Shown here: positions 45,053 through 63,953 of the stretch, piece after piece | Position numbering within the stretch: position 1 is the first letter of the stretch | Layout of the letters: every line of letters starts with the position of its first letter | Source of the DNA: Candidatus Absconditabacterales bacterium | Lineage (GTDB): Bacteria > Patescibacteriota > Gracilibacteria > Absconditabacterales > Absconditicoccaceae | Length of the DNA: 64,000 bases | NCBI GenBank assembly: GCA_937923605.1 | Contig: CALDTY010000011.1 | Coordinates: 1 to 64,000, forward strand | Reading direction: 5' to 3' | Position numbers and translations under genes: made by a program | Notes under the pieces: model-generated | What the model saw: the letters and a program-made list of their open reading frames with translations, nothing else | Told to the model about the DNA's origin: nothing | The model's database searches: none

Positions 45053-46066
45053 ATGAGCCAAACGAAACTTATTTTCACTTGAGAGTCTACTTATCAAGTC
45101 CATGAAGCTATAAGCTATCGGAAGGATAATTTTATGCAAAAGTATTGAAATGAATGAGTTCATGTCTTTCGTCAAGGAGATATAAATATGTCTGAGTTGC
45201 AGTCATGTGTTTTTGGAGGCTGATTTTTTTCACAAAAATCTTTGGTTATTATCTATTGAGTTCCAAAAGATAATAATACTGAGAATAAACTCACTGCTTC
45301 AGAAAGTGAACCACTTGAGAAAATTCTTGAAGACAACTGGGACAAAATACCTGAAGAAACAATCTTAATCCTTGTGAGCTATAAGCCTGACAAGAGAACT
45401 AGGTCCTGGAAGTTTTTTTCTACCTCAACAACCATAAAAGAGTTTCCTAAGAAAAAGGGGAAAGATCTAACCTTGTTTGTTTTAGATAAGTCAACTTTAC
45501 TTAAATGAGAGAATATAATACACTTGATTGACTCAAAGCAAGCAGAAAAAATCGTATCTATTGTTGGAAATAATTTATTTAATCTACATTATGAATGTGA
45601 TAAAATAGTTCACTATTGTATATTCCATAATCTTCAAAAGATATCTAATGAAACAATTGAATGACTATTGTATCGTCAGGATCACGATAGTTTTAAAGTT
45701 ATTGATACAATCTTTAGCAATCCAGATGCTGCTTTAGAATATATAGGCCAAGCTCAGCAAAACAATCAAAACGAATATGAGTTTCTAGGAATGTTGTATC
45801 GATGATGTAAATTGATATTAAATTTACTTGAACTTGAAAAGCAATGAGTTTCTTCCTCTAAAGAGATGGCAAAAATACTAAGTCTACATCCATTTGCTGT
45901 ATCTAAACATAAAAGTAAATTATGAGAATATAGAAAAATTGAAGACAAAGTAAGTTCATTATTCTTATGACTCCTGCAATTAGAGTATAATCTTAAAACC
46001 TGACAATATCCAGCAGAGTGATTTTGGGTAAAAGTCAAAAGTCTAATATATGGAATTTCACAATAA
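45053..46066 (+). CDS. holA: DNA polymerase III delta subunit-like
   Basis: MSQTKLIFTGESTYQVHEAISYRKDNFMQKYG...LQSCVFGGGFFSQKSLVIIYGVPKDN...; delta-type domain layout. Confidence 0.7.
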
Positions 46067-46069
46067 AAA

Positions 46070-46098
46070 AAGCCTGAAACATAAACAGTTCCAGGCTT
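46070..46098 (-). terminator. Terminator hairpin downstream of the first TGA-free operon
   Basis: aaaaAGCCTGAAACataaacaGTTCCAGGCT; T-run on the minus strand. Confidence 0.6.
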
Positions 46099-46127
46099 GA
46101 TATCACTAATAAATCTTTTTCTAGAAT

Positions 46128-46667
46128 CTAACTATTCCTTCGTTTTCTTCTTTGTAATTCATCTCTTATACAAGTCGCTTTCTCATAATCTTCTTCATCC
46201 AATGACCCTTGTAAAATATAGGTCAGATGCTTCTCATCATAAGAAGATAAATCAAAATTTTCATTATCAAAAATAGACCTATCTGCAACTAAGATTATGC
46301 TAAATAGATAACCATAGATTAATGCAAATCTGACATCAACCTTGGTGATACATTTATCAATTCCTTTGATCTTAACTTTAGTATAAAATGAATTAGTTTC
46401 GACATCCTTTTGTAATTCAAAATATTCTATCTCTGCATCAAAAGCCTTTAGAATATCTGAGATCAACGAATATGGCTCAAAGAACAATTTTTCAAATGAT
46501 TCTGACTCAAAAAGATCATAATCATTAAAACAAGCATATAACATTTGAAGTTCATCCTTATCTAAGGCTACTTCAATACCTACATCAGATGTGCCTTCAA
46601 AAAGAAAACATTCATTAGGGACTTCTTCTTTGGTAGCAATAAGGCAATTAAGAATTACTTTTTTCAT
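46128..46667 (-). CDS. Bifunctional-nuclease (DUF151)-like protein with C-terminal UVR motif; TGA-free ORF
   Basis: ORF open in standard code; DVRFALIYGYLFSIILVADRSIF resembles BFN; UVR-type tail LQGSLDEEDYEKATCIRDELQRRKRR. 5 Gly, all GGN. Confidence 0.6.
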   Translation of the reverse strand: MKKVILNCLIATKEEVPNECFLFEGTSDVGIEVALDKDELQMLYACFNDYDLFESESFEKLFFEPYSLISDILKAFDAEIEYFELQKDVETNSFYTKVKIKGIDKCITKVDVRFALIYGYLFSIILVADRSIFDNENFDLSSYDEKHLTYILQGSLDEEDYEKATCIRDELQRRKRRNS

Positions 46668-46672
46668 AAGTA

Positions 46673-47209
46673 TTATTTCTTTGATTTAGATGTAATTAGA
46701 TCTCTAATAGTAGCTGCCTTTTCAAATTCATCATTATCAAGAGCCTTTTTAAGTAATTTTTTAAGATTCGATAACGACATTTTATTAATATCTTTAAGAT
46801 CAACTACTTCACTAGTAAGTTTAGATATTACTTCTTCATAGGCAGGAATAAGTCTATCATTCATAAAATTTGTATATGGTCCTGTCCAATACCCTTTTTC
46901 TTCTTCACTTTCAAGATCTTCAAAATTTTCCTGATAAGCTTCCCATTCACTTATATTCTTTTCAATCATACTTACTGACCTAAAATTTTCTGCATACTGA
47001 CTAATAGCTTTGTCACTAATATTTTGCATAGCGATTTCAGCCATTTCAAATTCACAGGCTTGTTCAAGTTTTTCTAAAAAATCATATGTTACCAGATATG
47101 AAATTTGTAAAGTACTCTTTAATTTTCTTTTTAGTGAGATCAAATAGAACTTCTCTAAATTTAATATTTGATCGTTGAGAAACATAGTTTGCATAGTACC
47201 AATGAACAT
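46673..47209 (-). CDS. UVR-motif-containing protein; TGA-free ORF (start uncertain)
   Basis: LKKLLKKALDNDEFEKAATIRDLITSKSKK tail parallels the downstream BFN-like gene; overlaps the upstream ORF by 128 bp, so the true start may be about 47.09 kb. Confidence 0.55.
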   Translation of the reverse strand: MFIGTMQTMFLNDQILNLEKFYLISLKRKLKSTLQISYLVTYDFLEKLEQACEFEMAEIAMQNISDKAISQYAENFRSVSMIEKNISEWEAYQENFEDLESEEEKGYWTGPYTNFMNDRLIPAYEEVISKLTSEVVDLKDINKMSLSNLKKLLKKALDNDEFEKAATIRDLITSKSKK

Positions 47210-47672
47210 TATTGGACATTAATTGGTTTTTTAATAAATCAATGATATCACTACAATAGTGTTCAATTTTATCAATTTGATTTTTCTTGACTGATTCATT
47301 AAATTTTTCAATCAAATCCATATATATTATAATATGCTTATAATGTACTAGGTAACAGATTGGTTTGTCAGAAAATTCAAAAGGTCCAGCATATTGTTTA
47401 TTACTTGGAGTGAAATATGAATGATGATATTTTGGTTGCTCATTTAAACCAAGTGCATCATATATATAATGATACCCATCTTCATTTATTCTAAGTTCAA
47501 TATTATAATCACCAATTTTTCTATCATAGTATGGTTCAGCTTTATTTATATAATATTTACCACAGTGAACATGTACAGAATGTCGGCGAATATATACTGT
47601 TGTACCAGGAACAATGTGACCAATTAATGGTAGTATTAAAACAGGATCAGATTTTTGTGTATCTTTCGTCAT
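47082..47672 (-). CDS. Hypothetical protein, 196 aa; TGA-free, terminating at TGA
   Basis: MTKDTQKSDPVLILPLIGHIVPGTTVYIRRHSVHVHCGKYY...TNFISGNI then TGA (plus strand tca 47082-47084); 8 Gly all GGN. Confidence 0.65.
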   Translation of the reverse strand: MTKDTQKSDPVLILPLIGHIVPGTTVYIRRHSVHVHCGKYYINKAEPYYDRKIGDYNIELRINEDGYHYIYDALGLNEQPKYHHSYFTPSNKQYAGPFEFSDKPICYLVHYKHIIIYMDLIEKFNESVKKNQIDKIEHYCSDIIDLLKNQLMSNNVHWYYANYVSQRSNIKFREVLFDLTKKKIKEYFTNFISGNI

Positions 47673-47689
47673 AGTTTATTTTTAGTATA

Positions 47690-48145
47690 TTATTTAATAG
47701 ATGCTTTGTGCATCATAACTTCTTTAGCAGATTTATAAAACATATCTGACACAAAAATTACATCAACTAATTGATTGACATAAGCCAATATAAGAACATC
47801 CTCTAAATGAATTTTATCAATTATTTTATTGTGACCAAAAACATAAGCATCACCAAAAACTTTCGTAAAAGAAACCGTAGGATCGTTCTTAAAATGACTG
47901 TACTCCGTAACAGATATAAAGTTTTTTAACAGTATATGATGTAATTTTTTATTCCATTTGGACCAAATACTGTTCAGTTGAAAAGCACCATCGCTCAGAT
48001 CTGTTTGGTTTGACAAAAGTAGTTCAGTAAGTTTATGAGTTGAATGAACTGGTAATTCAAACTCTACATTGTTTGGTAACATAAGATTAAAATAATATCC
48101 TCCTTGCTCACTTTCATAGAAAGTAAGATTATTCACTTGTATCAT
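47690..48145 (-). CDS. Hypothetical protein, 151 aa; TGA-free
   Basis: Open in standard code, TAA stop; 5 Gly all GGN. Confidence 0.65.
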   Translation of the reverse strand: MIQVNNLTFYESEQGGYYFNLMLPNNVEFELPVHSTHKLTELLLSNQTDLSDGAFQLNSIWSKWNKKLHHILLKNFISVTEYSHFKNDPTVSFTKVFGDAYVFGHNKIIDKIHLEDVLILAYVNQLVDVIFVSDMFYKSAKEVMMHKASIK

Positions 48146-48155
48146 AGAAATTGGT

Positions 48156-48623
48156 TTATTTTGCTTTAATGAAAACTTTTACATGCTTATGAATCATTCG
48201 GTACAATAAAACAAGATTAATGAGATCTGCCCCATTACTATGCTTCCATGTTTTCGACTTATTAACAGAAGCATTATCCGTTAAACTATACTGAATATAG
48301 TGAGCATCATTATGTTTTAAAACAATTTGTTCAAAAACAATATTCTCTTTTTTCTCAAAAAACTGTTTGAATAATGCTTTAGCTTTTGAGTTTGGTAAAT
48401 ACATTATACCCTTTCTATAACATTCATATTCTTGTTTCTGACCATTTGAAAATGGAATTTCGAGTTGATATTCAGAATTTTTGCATAAAAATCTTAACGC
48501 CATATCTGACATAAGATTGTTGTACGCAGAGCTATGCTCTTTTATTATTGATTTTTGTTTACTCATATCGTTAGTATTTTTTATAATTAACTGATTTTTT
48601 TTGATTTGAAAGATCTTACACAC
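48156..48623 (-). CDS. Hypothetical protein, 155 aa; TGA-free (start may be internal at MSKQKS)
   Basis: Open in standard code, TAA stop; 3 Gly all GGN. Confidence 0.6.
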   Translation of the reverse strand: MCKIFQIKKNQLIIKNTNDMSKQKSIIKEHSSAYNNLMSDMALRFLCKNSEYQLEIPFSNGQKQEYECYRKGIMYLPNSKAKALFKQFFEKKENIVFEQIVLKHNDAHYIQYSLTDNASVNKSKTWKHSNGADLINLVLLYRMIHKHVKVFIKAK

Positions 48624-48661: not shown

Positions 48662-48940
48662 TTAATATATTTTTATGCTTCTTAATCTATATGAATATCA
48701 AAATTCATCTAATTTTATGTTAAGTTCCTTACGTAAATCTTCTCTTTGCATAAACCACATAGTTTTATCTTCATTGCTCGGTAAGCGAAAAGTTAACACT
48801 TCTCACCTAATAAAACCCTTAATTTCTTCCTTTGAGATTGATTTAGCATTAATATGGTGCATCAAAAAAGATCAAATACTAAGTTTTGAAAGATTTTTTT
48901 GTGCTAGGCGATTCTTGAGAACCTTTTTTATTTCTTTCAT
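48662..48940 (-). CDS. DUF721/DciA-like protein, 92 aa
   Basis: MKEIKKVLKNRLAQKNLSKLSI...EIKGFIRGEVLTFRLPSNEDKTMWFMQREDLRKELNIKLDEFGYSYRLRSIKIY*; two TGA=Gly. Confidence 0.55.
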
Positions 48941-50031
48941 AACGGCTTCGGTGAATAATTACTGTCTAAACCCTTAACTCGATATAGATATATATTTATA
49001 CCATAAAATATAAACGCCATGGCAAAGAAGACTATCAACTTTCAAATTCTATCATTTCATAATAGTAACATGACAGTCATAAAAAACAATGACCATCACC
49101 AAATAAATATTCTGACTTCTCCTCTATTTCGTCATAAAGAAAGCAATCTATAGTGTAAATGTGAATAATCTCATTTTAAAGGGTTCTTGTTCTTTTTCCA
49201 TCTATCAATAATAACCCATATAGCATCAAATAATGGTAAAGCTAAAACAACAATCATTGTTCAAATTTTAGCTCAACCTAATAATGACAAATATCATAAT
49301 GAAAATCAGAAAAACATAGTTCATACATCTCTCATTAATCACCATGGTTTGTATTCCATAATTGTTCAAAACACTCAAACTACAAAAAGAATAAGAGCAA
49401 CTATTTTTACACGAAGCAATAACTCATTGCGTTCAAAAGTCATAAATTCAAATGTAGGAAACACAACTAATACTAATAAGAGAAATATTGTTAGAAATCA
49501 TATTGTACTCATTCATGTTGCTAATCCATAGATTCAATCAAACCAATTTATAGCATTTATAAATAATACAAACCAAGCAATGGTAGCTATTAACGAAGTG
49601 AATCAACTTAGTTGAATAGCTTGAAATCATGGTATACTGAGATAATCAAGTCAAACTCAAGAAAATCGTCGAGCACCTGCTGCAACTAAGATCTGAACCA
49701 AAAACCTTATTCATGCTGAAAGTGAATACTTCTTATCTACTAAGTATCAAAGCTCATCTATAATTGAAACTAATGCTATAATTCATCCTCACACAAACAG
49801 TCATAAGAACTCTTTTCAAACATAATCTAGATCCAAATAATATTTTGTAATAAGAAGCAATACTAAGAAAGTAATAATTATTGTTACTCATTGTAGAGTG
49901 GGTACTGGATCTCTATCAGGAACATCTTTTCCAGGCTTATCTAAAATATTGAAGAATCTAAAAAATGATATTCATCACCACAGACAAATTGAACAAACTA
50001 TAATATATGTCAGAATTAGAAACAAATCCAT
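48928..50031 (-). CDS. Undecaprenyl-phosphate sugar-phosphate transferase (MraY/WecA/TagO family)
   Basis: DKPGKDVPDRDPVPTLQG...SIIDELGYLVDKKYSLSAGIRFLVQILVA...NAINWFDGIYGLATGMS...KNKNPLKGDYSHLHYRLLSLG. Confidence 0.9.
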
Positions 50032-50128
50032 TATTTTGTATACTAAGGTTCTCAAAAATTTGTTCAAGTTGAGCTTTACAAAAAAGCAAACAAAACTAAA
50101 ATAGAGATTCTATAAACTAATTAAACAT

Positions 50129-52708: not shown

Positions 52709-53059
52709 TTAGTTACATGTAATCTCATCAAATTTTTCTTTCTGTGTTTCAGAAAGAAAGAATGTGTTTAATGTAATGTCAGCATCAATTTTGATTTGTA
52801 TAAAATGATTAACTAATGATATTGTGGCATTTCCAAGTTTTTGAGTAGTATTTTTTAGATAGATTCGTCTACGTTTAATAGGCTCAAATCTAAACCAATC
52901 ATACACTTTTGGTGATCGATTAAAATTCTTCTGAAATTCCTGAATAAAGTGCATAACCAACTGAAATGATTTACCATGATCAATATAGGTTACGGCAAAT
53001 TTTTTAAAATCATTCAGAAAGATTTTATCAGTATTTTCAGAAATGATGTGCTCATGCAT
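52709..53059 (-). CDS. Hypothetical protein, 116 aa; TGA-free
   Basis: Open in standard code, TAA stop; only 2 Gly, both GGN. Confidence 0.55.
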   Translation of the reverse strand: MHEHIISENTDKIFLNDFKKFAVTYIDHGKSFQLVMHFIQEFQKNFNRSPKVYDWFRFEPIKRRRIYLKNTTQKLGNATISLVNHFIQIKIDADITLNTFFLSETQKEKFDEITCN

Positions 53060-53069
53060 TCTTAGTTTT

Positions 53070-53813
53070 TTAGTTCTCTAATAAATAGTAAAAATCTCTC
53101 TTTTGCTTCGATCTTTTATCATGTTTATCTTGATTAAATTTATCATAAATCTCATTACTAATAGTGATATAGTTTAACGTGTAGTACTCAATAATATCAT
53201 CCTTAGCAATTAATACTGGAAATGAAGAATATACATCAGAAGAATATTCATATTCGAGATCAATTGTCTCATTTGGATACATATCTTGAAGCATTATTGT
53301 CCTATTTCTATCGGTTAAACCTATTAATTCACAATATTTTGATACATCATTAAGTAATAAAGAAAAACTTTTTCTACAATTGAAATGCAATGCCTCATAG
53401 TACGTACTAAAAGCAATCTGAGTAGTTAAATTAATAAGAATACAACAAACTACAAGAGCGCAAAACACTAAGTATCCAATTACTTTCAAAGGATTATCTT
53501 CAGTTTTATCACAATTATATATTAAACAAGCAATAAATAATAATGCAAAAATCACAATATACAGAAATACATGATGAACAATAATCTGTCTTCTTAGTTC
53601 CTCAAGACTATTTGTTGTTTGTTTTTCAGAACTATAAATTCTGATTGGTTTAAATGAATACTTCTTTTGATGATTATGCTTTCTATATGCAACAACAATA
53701 ACAAAACTTATTACTGCAATGAAAAATAACCATAAAACAGGTACATAATGGAATATCGTCATATCTATTTTTTTTGATTGAATTATATCTTCTTTGACTA
53801 TTAAATATCTCAT
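53070..53813 (-). CDS. Hypothetical membrane protein, 247 aa; TGA-free
   Basis: Open in standard code; TM segments VPVLWLFFIAVISFVIVVAY, VFLYIVIFALLFIACLIY, IGYLVFCALVVCCILINL; upstream TTGACA promoter-like sequence. Confidence 0.65.
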   Translation of the reverse strand: MRYLIVKEDIIQSKKIDMTIFHYVPVLWLFFIAVISFVIVVAYRKHNHQKKYSFKPIRIYSSEKQTTNSLEELRRQIIVHHVFLYIVIFALLFIACLIYNCDKTEDNPLKVIGYLVFCALVVCCILINLTTQIAFSTYYEALHFNCRKSFSLLLNDVSKYCELIGLTDRNRTIMLQDMYPNETIDLEYEYSSDVYSSFPVLIAKDDIIEYYTLNYITISNEIYDKFNQDKHDKRSKQKRDFYYLLEN

Positions 53814-58981: not shown

Positions 58982-60385
58982 TTGATATGGAGAAAAAGAG
59001 TACTCATCAAGAAAAAGCTGAACCAGAAGATTTCCTACATACTATCAAAGTGGAATAAAGCCTTTGAAATATTCTTAGATGATCCTAGGGATTGGTTACA
59101 AGAATGGATAGAATTACGGAGAGAAGATAATGCTAAAAAAAAGATCATTAGTAATATTGTTCATAATGGTACAAAATTCCGTGGTGAACGATTTATAATG
59201 GTACTTGTTGCAGCATTATTTGCAGCTGGTGGATTGTATAAAGACAACTGGGCTTATACTATAGGTAGCATGCTAGCTAGTCCTATGATGTATGCTATTA
59301 TCGGCATTGCATACGCATTGTATGCATTTGACGATGATACGTTCTGGGGTTCTTTTAAGTCATTTATGATACAGTTTGCTATTGGTTTAGGTCTCTCATT
59401 TTGCTTCTTTAGCATTATGTCATTAAACATACCTACTGATGCGCTTTGGGCTAGAACCTACCCTGATGCAATTGATTTGAGTATAGCATTTGCTGGTGGG
59501 TTACTAGGAATATTAGCAAGTATGCATGCAGATAAGATTTCATTAGCAACCGTGGTAGCTGCAGTAGCAATTGGGACATCATTGATGCCACCAATTTGTA
59601 CTATAGGATATGGTTTAGCGACGGGACAACATATTTTTATCTGGGATGCATTTTGGCTATTTGTGATAAATACTGTCATGATTATGCTCGCTAGTATTCT
59701 TATGATATATATTACAGAATTACCAAAGAAACAAGGTATTAGTAAAAATAAACAATTTGTTTATGGTTTAATTGTTTGTGTTGGGATTGTGATCGCAATA
59801 ATAAACTCATTACAAGTTGCTAACTACGAATCAAATAAAGGAGAAATACATACTCTAGTACAAACTGTCTTAAAAGACAAAGGTAGAATGACTAGTTTAG
59901 ATATTAACCATCATCAACAATTTGTAGATGGATTCATGGTAACTAATCCCCTTGTAACTGATACATTATGGAGAGCTTTGGAACAAGAAATAAGTTTAAT
60001 TGTTCCAGATTATGATGTCAAAATTACACAAGTTGCACAGCATCATAAAGATGATAGGATTTCAAGTTTTGCAAAACAACAGAATGAGGAACTTTCTTCA
60101 TTACGGTCACAATTGAAACTTTCTCTGAAAGAAAGGTCTGATATGAAACGGCAAAATGAATATAGAGACTCAATATATACAATAATTCCATCGATGCTTC
60201 GTAGAAGCATACAAAACATTGAAGGAGTAAATGTTGTTAGTTTACAACCTGAAGGAGTTGATTCAATATCTTATGCTGCATTAGTAAAATATGCACCAAA
60301 AAATTGGAAATCAAAAGTACGGATTGAGAACGATTTGGATAGCTTATCACTTAGGTTTCCTAAACTAAGCATTTCGAAATTTTAA
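58982..60385 (+). CDS. DUF389-family membrane protein; TGA-free (5' end uncertain)
   Basis: NGTKFRGERFIMVLVAALFAAGGLYKDNWAYTIGSMLASPMMYAIIGIAYAL...AFAGGLLGILASMHADKISLATVVAAVAIGTSLMPPICTIGYGLATGQ; 24 Gly, none TGA; ORF would need a TTG start. Confidence 0.78.
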   Translation: MIWRKRVLIKKKLNQKISYILSKWNKAFEIFLDDPRDWLQEWIELRREDNAKKKIISNIVHNGTKFRGERFIMVLVAALFAAGGLYKDNWAYTIGSMLASPMMYAIIGIAYALYAFDDDTFWGSFKSFMIQFAIGLGLSFCFFSIMSLNIPTDALWARTYPDAIDLSIAFAGGLLGILASMHADKISLATVVAAVAIGTSLMPPICTIGYGLATGQHIFIWDAFWLFVINTVMIMLASILMIYITELPKKQGISKNKQFVYGLIVCVGIVIAIINSLQVANYESNKGEIHTLVQTVLKDKGRMTSLDINHHQQFVDGFMVTNPLVTDTLWRALEQEISLIVPDYDVKITQVAQHHKDDRISSFAKQQNEELSSLRSQLKLSLKERSDMKRQNEYRDSIYTIIPSMLRRSIQNIEGVNVVSLQPEGVDSISYAALVKYAPKNWKSKVRIENDLDSLSLRFPKLSISKF

Positions 60386-60399
60386 TTTATTAATGTATA

Positions 60400-60433
60400 A
60401 AAAAAGGCTTGGCATAATTTGCCAGGCCTTTTT
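60400..60433. terminator. Bidirectional terminator between convergent TGA-free genes
   Basis: AAAAAGGCTTGGCAtaattTGCCAGGCCTTTTT. Confidence 0.75.
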
Positions 60434-60454
60434 ACTTATTTAATATTAAATAAC

Positions 60455-61052
60455 TTATAACCAAGGAGAGAACATTCCTACTCTTTCCATATAACCTTCA
60501 TAAGCATCATGAAGTTCTTTCATTTGCATTTCTTCAAGTTTGCAAGTTATATACCAAAGTGGGATAAATAATCCCAATATGATAAACCAAGTCGAAGAAA
60601 AGTAAATTAAACCCAGTCCTCCTAGTAGCAAATACATGCTCACATACATAGGAAACATAGGTAGGGCCTTCCAATTGCGTTACATAGTCATGACTATCAG
60701 TAGTAAAGTTATCAGTCCCAAGCTTTGGAAAAAATATATCTACATTATCCATAGTGTATTCTGCACTATCGTTCCTAAAAGGAGGTATAGTAAAATTATT
60801 ATTGAAAGAATTCACCTTTGCAGTCAATAGATTCCATATTCTACCAAATCGTTTCTTACTGTAATGCATCTTATATCCAATCACTGGATACAGCACAATA
60901 AGAAGAAATGAACCTATCGATGCTATGTGTAGTTGTATATGCTCAGTCATCTTAAACATACTTATCACTAAGAATATGATAGCTGAAGATCTTATTAACA
61001 TCATTTTTAGATGTAAATCTTTAATCTCATTAAATTCGTTAACTTGGTTCAT
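60455..61052 (-). pseudogene. ICMT/PEMT-type membrane methyltransferase-like gene split across two frames
   Basis: 5' frame ORF 60534-61052 and 3' frame ORF 60455-60658 overlap out of frame; the 3' frame supplies FPMYVSMYLLLGGLGLIYFSSTWFIILGLFIPLWYITCKLEEMQMKELHDAYEGYMERVGMFSPWL. Confidence 0.55.
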
Positions 61053-61560
61053 ATACTAATTTTTTTGTGTGAGTATGATCTACTACCCCTGGAACGACTT
61101 TATCTTTGTTCCAAAAGCAGTAGGGAATATTATGTTTAATAAGAATTTCTTTAATCTGCTCTCCTCCGATACATCTTATAGTATCAAGAGGAAGTTTCTC
61201 AGTACAACAATGTACAAAAGAAGAATGAAAGTGCGAATGAAATTTATCCTTAACGAACTTATTCAGTTCAAGAAGTAATTTTTCCTTTTTCACAATATCT
61301 AATGCTAAACCACATGCTGTTTGATATAATTTTACTATACAAAGCAATTCAAGCTTACTTTCAATGCCCAAGAGAAAAAGATATTTCTCCTTCTTAGATA
61401 GTGAAGATGTAAAGACAAAATCTTTTAGGTCCGTGCTTGACTTAGATATGCTATCTTTTATAGACTTAGCTGCATAAAATATTGTTATAGCTGCCATACT
61501 TACCGTAGTTGATATTGCGACAATAATACACATTTCAAGTATTTTATCTGATAATTCCAT
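61039..61560 (-). CDS. Paralogous membrane-anchored protein, member A; TGA-free
   Basis: N-term TM; CIVKLYQTACGLAL ... RCIGGEQIKEILIKHNIPYCFWNKDKVVPGVVDHTH. Confidence 0.72.
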   Translation of the reverse strand: MELSDKILEMCIIVAISTTVSMAAITIFYAAKSIKDSISKSSTDLKDFVFTSSLSKKEKYLFLLGIESKLELLCIVKLYQTACGLALDIVKKEKLLLELNKFVKDKFHSHFHSSFVHCCTEKLPLDTIRCIGGEQIKEILIKHNIPYCFWNKDKVVPGVVDHTHTKKLVYEPS

Positions 61561-61590
61561 GTACTAATTTTTTCGTTTTAATAATGATTT

Positions 61591-62505
61591 TTAAAATCCT
61601 AAGTATTCAAGTATAGTTACTCTTCCTTTCCAGAAATCGCCTTTATTTGCAACTCCTTCTTTAGAAAAAGCTCCATACTCTAGCACTTCAATCTTTTTTC
61701 CGTTAAGTAACTTCAATTCTATAAAGTTTCTCAGGCCTGCTCTTCCTACAAATTTTTTCTCAACATTCTGTATAACCCCAGATATCTTTATACATCTAAA
61801 GTATAAAAAAATCATAAAGATAAATACACATGTAATGAAAATGAATGCAGGAGTTGGTAAATGCATCTCAGACTTTGGATAACGGTAGACATGAAGCACC
61901 ATAGAATACAGAAGAATAATTGGTGTAAATTTTACTATCTCTCCAAATATTCCAGTACTTGTAGATACGTACCGTTGAGACTCCTCTATTACTCCTGGTA
62001 AGATTTGATCTTCTCTCCAAAAGAAATAAGGTATCTCAAGATCATTTACTATCTCTTTCACTTGCGCTCCGCCAATACAATCTACAGACTCTATTGATAA
62101 GTTTTCCGTAGTACAAGCTAACTTGACTCTTAGGTGCTGAGATACAAAAACATCATTTACATATGCATCTAGTTGCTTAAGAATCCGTCTCTTTTTATCC
62201 AGTGGCATAGAGCTTGCACATGCTGCTTGATATAACTTCTTAATATATACTAGCCTTAAGCCCTTTGTTCTCCCTATCAAAAAGAGAATTTTGACATTAA
62301 TAGGTAGAAATGAACTATAGATGTACTTTCGAAACTCAGATGTTGTATGTAAGTGATTTTCTCTTACCTCTCTTAAATATATAAATGAAAAGATACATAC
62401 ACAACATACTATAGCAGTTATCGTTCCAATTATAATTCCTCCAATAATTTGTGATAATAACATATTTTTAAATTTAATTTGCTTATATAATAATATCTTT
62501 TGCAT
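61591..62505 (-). CDS. Paralogous membrane protein, member B; TGA-free (start probably MLLSQ, about 62463)
   Basis: RTKGLRLVYIKKLYQAACASSM ... DCIGGAQVKEIVNDLEIPYFFWREDQILPGVIEESQ; extra C-terminal TM segments and domain. Confidence 0.72.
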   Translation of the reverse strand: MQKILLYKQIKFKNMLLSQIIGGIIIGTITAIVCCVCIFSFIYLREVRENHLHTTSEFRKYIYSSFLPINVKILFLIGRTKGLRLVYIKKLYQAACASSMPLDKKRRILKQLDAYVNDVFVSQHLRVKLACTTENLSIESVDCIGGAQVKEIVNDLEIPYFFWREDQILPGVIEESQRYVSTSTGIFGEIVKFTPIILLYSMVLHVYRYPKSEMHLPTPAFIFITCVFIFMIFLYFRCIKISGVIQNVEKKFVGRAGLRNFIELKLLNGKKIEVLEYGAFSKEGVANKGDFWKGRVTILEYLGF

Positions 62506-62674
62506 AAACTGTTATCCCACACTTTCTTGCCTCTCTAGCTAGATCAGCATTACTCAGTTTATTTACTAGAGAACGAACCCATTTTTTAAAATCCTTACCT
62601 ATAGTATCCATATGTAGTCCATGGTATCCCCAGGTGACTCTCATAATTTCGTCGACTATATCAATTTTTTTCAT
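62483..62674 (-). CDS. Small hypothetical protein, 63 aa; TGA-free
   Basis: MKKIDIVDEIMRVTWGYHGLHMDTIGKDFKKWVRSLVNKLSNADLAREARKCGITVYAKDIII*. Confidence 0.45.
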   Translation of the reverse strand: MKKIDIVDEIMRVTWGYHGLHMDTIGKDFKKWVRSLVNKLSNADLAREARKCGITVYAKDIII

Positions 62675-62677
62675 TGT

Positions 62678-63370
62678 TTATTGGTTTAGTTGTTTTTTAA
62701 TTTGATCTACCTTAATTTTAGTCAGTTGTATATCTCTCCCAATAGCCTTTAGATCATTATCTAGAAACTCTTTGTTCCAAAGATATGAAGGAATTGTATG
62801 TATTCGAATAAAACTCTCTTGATACTCTGGCTCAAAACAATCAAGCGAAGATAAAAATTCTATATCCCAAATTTCCCCAGGACAATCTTCTAACCTAATC
62901 ATATTAGGGATATAGTAACTCTGGAAATAATCATGTATATCGATATAGAGTTGCTTTTTATTTGATGTACATGGTACAAAGTAAGTAAGATGAAATAATT
63001 TTTGCAAATATACATCATCTACATTGATACCTAAACCAAAAATAAGTCCAATTTTTATATGTAACGGCGCAGGCAGTTTCCATATGATTTTTCTCATGTT
63101 TGGATAACATCTTCTCAATCTATAGGATATAGAATGTTGAAAATCCTTAATCTTCAACGTACCAATAATCAAAACAAAGATAAATATTGCTACCACTACA
63201 AAATAATACAGGGTATACAAATTTAAATCTTTTGGATATAGAGATCCGTCTGTAAATTCTTCTGGTGCAAATTGTCTCATCACAAATGAGACAAGACACA
63301 TAATGAATGCATACATAGGTATCCACCAATACTCACTAATAATTTTTCTCATGTTAACTGATAATTCCAT
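62678..63370 (-). CDS. Diverged paralog, member C (two TM segments); TGA-free
   Basis: LGINVDDVYLQKLFHLTYFVP ... FIRIHTIPSYLWNKEFLDNDLKAI matches the family layout; overlaps member D stop by 17 bp. Confidence 0.62.
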   Translation of the reverse strand: MELSVNMRKIISEYWWIPMYAFIMCLVSFVMRQFAPEEFTDGSLYPKDLNLYTLYYFVVVAIFIFVLIIGTLKIKDFQHSISYRLRRCYPNMRKIIWKLPAPLHIKIGLIFGLGINVDDVYLQKLFHLTYFVPCTSNKKQLYIDIHDYFQSYYIPNMIRLEDCPGEIWDIEFLSSLDCFEPEYQESFIRIHTIPSYLWNKEFLDNDLKAIGRDIQLTKIKVDQIKKQLNQ

Positions 63371-63953
63371 GTGCTCTACTTTTTTTTACGTTATCAAATA
63401 GTGTTACTGTTTCTTCAACTCCATTAACTAAATCGCCAGCTTTCCAAAAGAAATTTGGCACTCGTACTTTTTTAACCAGAGTCATAATATGATCTCCACC
63501 AAGACATTCCAAGTCATTTCTTTTAATTTTTCTAATTTGCTCTTCACGAGACGCTTGGGTAGCCATTTTATAATGATGGTTTAAATTATTGATGATATAG
63601 TTCTGTAGTAATGCAAAAAGTAATAATCTATTGTCATCTTCTAATTCTATCAAACAAGCAGTTTGATAAAGTTGCTTAATATACATCATCTTCAATCCTT
63701 TTCGTTGACCAGTATAAAACTTCCATTTAATATTCTGTGGCATCGTACTTGCTTCGACGAAACATCTAAGCGCCTTATATCTTGGGCTATATATTGTTAC
63801 AAAAGCCTTGAGATAAGGGTATAAGATAATTAATAAAATTGTTGCAGCTACACACTGCAGGGTAATTGTTAGATAGTTCATATGATTATAATTATATTTT
63901 TTTATTAATAGTTTATTAACAAGAAAAATGTAAGAAATGAGCATACATTTCAT
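63354..63953 (-). CDS. Paralogous membrane-anchored protein, member D; TGA-free (start probably MNYLT)
   Basis: RKGLKMMYIKQLYQTACLIEL ... ECLGGDHIMTLVKKVRVPNFFWKAGDLVNGVEETV. Confidence 0.72.
   Translation of the reverse strand: MKCMLISYIFLVNKLLIKKYNYNHMNYLTITLQCVAATILLIILYPYLKAFVTIYSPRYKALRCFVEASTMPQNIKWKFYTGQRKGLKMMYIKQLYQTACLIELEDDNRLLLFALLQNYIINNLNHHYKMATQASREEQIRKIKRNDLECLGGDHIMTLVKKVRVPNFFWKAGDLVNGVEETVTLFDNVKKSRAHGIIS

Follow-up and report, generated by a model that had tools for sequence, protein, structure and literature searches.

An operon lacking the reassigned TGA codon in a code-25 Absconditabacterales genome, and the genome-wide class of genes to which it belongs

Morons of phages are cargo genes with their own promoter and terminator. 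The cassettes described here resemble them in being small orphan cargo units, with a promoter and terminator of their own, inserted between unrelated genes, but their setting is a cellular chromosome, with no prophage detected around them. A second likeness is with the code-11-compatible phages of Gracilibacteria and Absconditabacteria (PMC10746230), which are also TGA-free, readable in codes 11 and 25, and associated with a code-25 host; the cassettes differ from them in being small, scattered and chromosomal, without phage hallmark genes at the o1-o5 locus. The prophages in such hosts were all found to be TGA-rich (PMC10746230). Transfer islands of Patescibacteria have been described as carrying accessory genes from other phyla, including Bacteroidota, and as reaching up to 13% of genome length; in the part of that account drawn on here, the recoded codon does not serve as a marker and a shared leader or promoter dialect is not reported (PMC12455944). 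What is new in the present genome is the class of genes and its dialect, not the o1-o5 operon itself.

The window, by which we mean the whole 64,000-nucleotide stretch that was analyzed, comes from contig C11 (64,627 bp) within a 1.31-Mb draft genome, G000. The genus lacks RF2, the genome has a UCA tRNA, and native genes in the window use TGA as glycine. Searches for RF2 (prfB) gave only sub-cut-off, RF1-type matches in G000-G004 (65-91% completeness), while RF2 was found above cut-off in standard-code relatives and in controls. The RF1 gene of G000 itself carries 13 TGA, and the tRNA with anticodon UCA (tca; 74 nt, labeled SeC by ARAGORN) is located on contig C32.

The operon and its five genes

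Five ORFs on the minus strand at 46128-48623, o1-o5, contain no in-frame TGA inside their bodies, and all of their glycine codons are GGN (24 with the ORF starts originally proposed, 23 after start correction). Given the native TGA share of glycine of 0.66, this absence has a probability of 1.2e-11. Genes carrying in-frame TGA stand on both sides, with 13 in holA, 3 in the dciA-like gene and 30 in the wecA-like gene, and a strong terminator closes the operon beside holA. The features are as follows.

45053..46066, plus strand: holA, a code-25 gene with 13 in-frame TGA; Pfam DNA_pol3_delta
46052..46115, minus strand: intrinsic terminator of the operon, a hairpin with U7; -19.4 kcal/mol, z -4.65
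46128..46667, minus strand: o5, 179 aa, degenerate BFN-like domain with UVR tail; TGA-free, stop TAG, leader score +6.8
46673..47085, minus strand: o4, UVR-motif protein of ~139 aa; coding from the o3 TGA in the +1 frame, its ATG overlapping that TGA
47082..47672, minus strand: o3, 196-aa orphan protein; TGA-free body ending at TGA, leader score +1.4
47690..48145, minus strand: o2, 151-aa orphan protein; TGA-free, stop TAA, leader score +5.4
48156..48566, minus strand: o1, 136-aa orphan protein; TGA-free, stop TAA
48662..48940, minus strand: DciA-like gene, 3 TGA; similar ORFs at the same place in G002, G003 and G012
48928..50067, minus strand: wecA-like glycosyltransferase, 30 TGA; Glycos_transf_4, E 2e-11

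The preliminary description of this DNA had reported five minus-strand ORFs with about 24 GGN codons and no TGA, flanked by genes that read TGA as glycine, and in these respects it was correct. Its ORF layout holds as far as the five TGA-free ORFs are concerned but needs correction at the start of o1, the end of o3 and the start of o4. The leader score for o1 is +4.8 at ATG 48566 versus 0.3 at GTG 48623, and the start is probably this ATG, which has the A-rich leader of the class described below, rather than the GTG. No perfect TTGACA promoter was found upstream of o1. Leader scores are positive for o1, o2, o3 and o5 and negative for holA, dciA and wecA. The body of o3 ends at a TGA (47084-47082) that, read in code 25, adds 22 codons including 5 TGAs before a TAG at 47016. 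A codon-frame likelihood scan placed the change of coding frame, from that of o3 to +1, at about 47.10 kb, and this switch at the o3 TGA means that the first ~125 bases of o4 as originally drawn (from 47209) are out of frame. Either o3 and o4 overlap as a TGA/ATG pair and the frame is disturbed in the T6 run that comes next, or they may be one broken gene.

o4 and o5 had been called a BFN/UVR pair, which is true of o5 by profile comparison only and of o4 only for the UVR motif. Pfam places o4 in PF02151 (E 4e-5; 23.5 bits against a cut-off of 21.5), while o5 scores 13.1, below the same cut-off. o5 gave no Pfam match to BFN (PF02577), and its genome yielded no BFN match. Alignment of o5 with BFN by hhalign (93%, E 3.8e-7) spans the C-terminal half of BFN and the UVR tail, the tail carrying part of the signal. 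This BFN-plus-UVR architecture is usual among the Bacteroidota BFN proteins aligned, those of Bacteroides, Parabacteroides and Runella carrying a UVR tail. Unlike them, o5 falls below Pfam detection and, in the hhalign alignment, retains only the Arg of the R-x-S-D motif, whose R, S and D are invariant in the BFN alignment. Since the conserved Ser and Asp are missing, we have not filed o5 as an active BFN nuclease. An AlphaFold model of o5 made without an alignment was too poor (pLDDT 38) and was left unused. Membership of o1, o2 and two proteins from the same site in G002 in the BFN family was also considered and found no support in hhalign.

The remaining proteins have few relatives. o1 gave only a sub-threshold Imm59 match in the Pfam scan (E 0.015), and o2 is weakly similar to o5 (35% over 65 aa, E 0.08). 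Searches with o1-o5 in 49 genomes of the family and 353 of the class found matches in their own genome only; G002 was matched only by its own two proteins that were part of the query. For o3, no relatives were found in genome contigs, viral contigs or phages, and for o2, o4 and o5 none in viral contigs. None of the five had a significant PHROGs or PADLOC match or a match to a phage record. In known proteins the UVR motif mediates protein-protein contacts. The products are probably dispensable cargo: o5 a degenerate BFN-UVR protein, o4 a protein resembling a UVR adaptor, and the other three orphans. Their most likely function, at low confidence, would be to serve as adaptors or regulators in an operon of dispensable cargo.

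The insertion site in related genomes

The flanking genes are widely shared, with holA present in 23 and the wecA-like gene in 24 of the 25 relatives searched; the DciA-like gene matched no Pfam family. In G012, holA, the dciA-like gene and the wecA-like gene are adjacent without the operon, with 445 bases from holA to wecA. The gap at the same site in G002 is 1.56 kb and holds two other TGA-free genes on the minus strand. In G003, holA and the dciA-like gene lie at the ends of two contigs, both of which end at the insertion site; the next gene after holA there encodes a TGA-free, UVR-tailed protein of about 390 aa. In G002 and G003 alike, every gene at the site is TGA-free in its body but finishes at a TGA. 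For the second G002 gene this TGA falls within a terminator loop (intrinsic terminator, z -3.4; G002:C15, L040:3991-4701), so translation with TGA as glycine would reach the likely transcript end without encountering a stop codon.

Apart from the UVR tails of o5, o4 and the G003 protein, no homology was detectable between the site proteins of the different species. The contents in the present genome, G002 and G003 thus show the site filled differently in three species, and gene order supports the view that the operon was inserted at a conserved site between holA and dciA. The contiguity of holA and wecA without the operon, raised in the preliminary description, is thus seen in G012, while G002 holds other genes there; homologous operons with TGA codons, which it had named as evidence against its reading, did not appear among the site genes of the sister species. 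The insertion it had suggested is therefore upheld as regards a conserved site filled independently in sister species. Beyond what it covered, the operon belongs to a genome-wide class with expression signals of its own, described below, and the composition of that class argues against a plain recent transfer.

A genome-wide class of TGA-free genes

The operon had been counted as a second TGA-free exception, which understates the case: 733 kb of G000 contains about 89 TGA-free ORFs out of 676, grouped into 49 islands. The original observation is real and partly confirmed, the operon being a single island among some fifty. On each large contig that was sampled, TGA-free genes alternate with native ones at the level of single genes, and the distribution of TGA share across ORFs has a spike at zero. 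Among 53 G000 genes with a strong AAAA leader, the TGA share is zero in 37, with few between zero and the native range. Some genes with intermediate TGA shares exist, mostly with native leaders. A Pfam scan of 79 TGA-free proteins matched only 17 families. High expression was rejected as the cause of TGA avoidance, since the ORFs at about 1-4 kb of the window, which we take to be ribosomal-protein-like, still use TGA.

An A-rich leader at about -13 to -10 precedes 68 of 76 class genes versus 38 of 352 native genes (90% versus 11%, p 5e-42), and this signal, which is independent of glycine, separates the class from native genes. It recurs in the TGA-free genes of G003 and G002 and is not seen in the more distant G009, of a different genus, whose few TGA-free genes carry Shine-Dalgarno sites as ordinary transfers would (L090-L099). 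Perfect TTGACA-TATAAT promoters were found for 23 of 78 class genes versus 1.2 in shuffles, and for 25 of 362 native genes versus 4.2 in shuffles, while the Bacteroidota-type promoter TAnnTTTG is not enriched in the class. Terminators lie downstream of 23 of 89 class genes versus 47 of 493 native genes. No integrase or att site was found, and no convincing shared border repeat at the islands. In non-glycine codon usage, the class lies at a distance of 2.1-2.3 from its own genome, compared with 1.4 for equally large native subsets; distances between species run from 5 to 11. The few clear class members of G002 are likewise nearest their own genome, while G003 is ambiguous.

Several other loci were noted. 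From 57462 in the window to the contig end at 64627 runs a large TGA-free block with MscS-like and DUF389 genes and a gene ending at TGA (60432-61052); within it, 61039-63953 holds an array of related membrane-anchored orphans with 18-37% mutual identity. The two DUF389 copies of G000 (C3:172160-173029 and window 58982-60385) are 27% identical, with 19 TGA glycines in one and none in the other. Beside the DUF3127 gene, G003:C36 (L043:1-4971) has a different, TGA-poor set resembling a vWA, phosphatase and kinase trio, where the present window has the large TGA-free block just described. At 52709-53813, two TGA-free, very glycine-poor ORFs lie between conserved genes, with an A-rich leader on one only, and the pair is absent at the corresponding place in G003. 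On other contigs, a six-gene TGA-free operon (C1:353-6382, L004) includes genes for an ABC ATPase, a permease and an OmpA-domain protein, and a TGA-free island on contig C3 (L006:14277-18001) has NMNAT-like, PurA-like and VWA-type genes.

Probable sources of the cassettes

Some members of the class have counterparts in phages. The island at C1:353-6382 is collinear with the 462-kb metagenomic phage LR756500.1 over five genes (24-52% identity), and the phage's genes are themselves preceded by a similar A-rich leader, without Shine-Dalgarno; no TTGACA promoters were found in this phage. The PurA-VWA pair of one island also occurs together in jumbo phages (31-36% identity), being common to those of Rhizobium, Vibrio and mycobacteria. 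Other traces point to Bacteroidota: a TonB-like protein is closest to Bacteroidota among plasmids, and a lipoprotein-type peptidase looks Bacteroidota-like by eye. The class leader resembles that of Flavobacterium, displaced by about one base; in F. johnsoniae, adenine is enriched at -14 to -11 (PMC6847099). Since o1-o5 themselves have no phage match, we infer their origin from their membership in the class.

The reading we favor, with a probability of roughly 0.55, is that the operon is a unit of a genome-wide class of autonomous accessory cassettes drawn from a standard-code mobile gene pool. That pool would include phage-type and probably Bacteroidota-type genes. Cassettes would tend to bring their own sigma70-type promoter, A-rich leader and terminator, and such signals would let a cassette work wherever it lands. 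Here one may have landed between holA and dciA, a site apparently filled independently in sister species. The host would then transcribe and translate it, GGN codons having the same meaning in both codes; at the source's TGA stop, as in o3, a host without RF2 should incorporate glycine and continue to the next TAA or TAG. The origin, read-through and function of the cassette genes are what we infer; the absence of TGA, the insertion, the shared dialect, the lack of RF2, the UCA tRNA and the phage synteny of another island were demonstrated.

Several results count against this mobile-pool reading. Codon usage resembles that of the resident genome, and recent foreign genes should differ. Long-resident genes, for their part, should have gained TGA, unless the gain is slow, TGA is avoided or the source already matched the genome, and almost no intermediate TGA shares occur among the strong-leader genes of G000. 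Only GGA is one step from TGA, and the gain of TGA may for this reason lag behind other amelioration. LR756500.1 lacks TTGACA promoters, o1-o5 lack a phage match, and neither integrase nor att site nor shared border repeat was found.

A somewhat unlikely alternative is plain recent transfer from a standard-code partner cell, probably Bacteroidota-like, without a mobile pool, the genes being too young to have acquired TGA. The same lag in TGA gain would help it, as would the TonB-like and lipoprotein-type genes, the BFN-UVR architecture usual in Bacteroidota, and AcnA-, aldehyde dehydrogenase- and ligase-like genes without close orthologs in relatives. The A-rich leader without Shine-Dalgarno is also like that of Bacteroidota (F. 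johnsoniae, PMC6847099). However, codon usage is already that of the resident in G000 and closest to its own genome in G002, the promoters are TTGACA-TATAAT with no enrichment of TAnnTTTG, several genes are shared with phages, and the proteins score far under NCBIfam equivalog cut-offs.

It is unlikely, in our estimation, that selection keeps the cassettes TGA-free because they are expressed, perhaps also, in a standard-code cell such as the host or prey of the Gracilibacterium, or another host used by a dual-host element. In its favor, codon usage is like the resident's and yet more than 1000 glycine codons include 0 TGA, intermediates are wanting in G000, the dialect is found in three species, and code-11-compatible phages of Gracilibacteria have been reported (PMC10746230). 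Against this, the promoters are not Bacteroidota-type, the composition of G003 is ambiguous, and some intermediate-TGA genes do exist, if mostly with native leaders. We regard as quite unlikely the related view that Gracilibacteria of this genus keep resident "bilingual" cassettes, about one gene in eight in the main genome, that are genome-matched and TGA-purged, with their own leader and promoter. On this view the reason would be that cassettes are expressed in a standard-code partner as well as in the recoded cell, or move back and forth between them.

It is most improbable that an assembly chimera or binning contamination put standard-code DNA into the contig. The genome is a draft MAG, this contig stops at 64,627 bp within a further TGA-free block, and G003 also breaks at the site; however, flank order is conserved in G012 and G002, the composition matches the genome, and the 49 islands alternate with native DNA, gene by gene, across all the large contigs that were sampled, which bears out the earlier view that a contig chimera is unlikely. 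Native glycine-poor genes lacking TGA by chance can be dismissed, since, although the proteins have only about 2-4% glycine, P is 1.2e-11 for the o1-o5 operon alone, the glycine-independent leader separates the class, and a pooled test refutes it.

In a recoded genome, a gene that lacks the reassigned codon is thereby marked as either foreign or kept bilingual. Because TGA absence here goes together with an independent signature in leader and promoter, it becomes possible to list acquired genes individually and to test directly whether recoding is a barrier to gene flow. The contrast between ameliorated codon usage and zero TGA raises the question of active TGA avoidance in the class.
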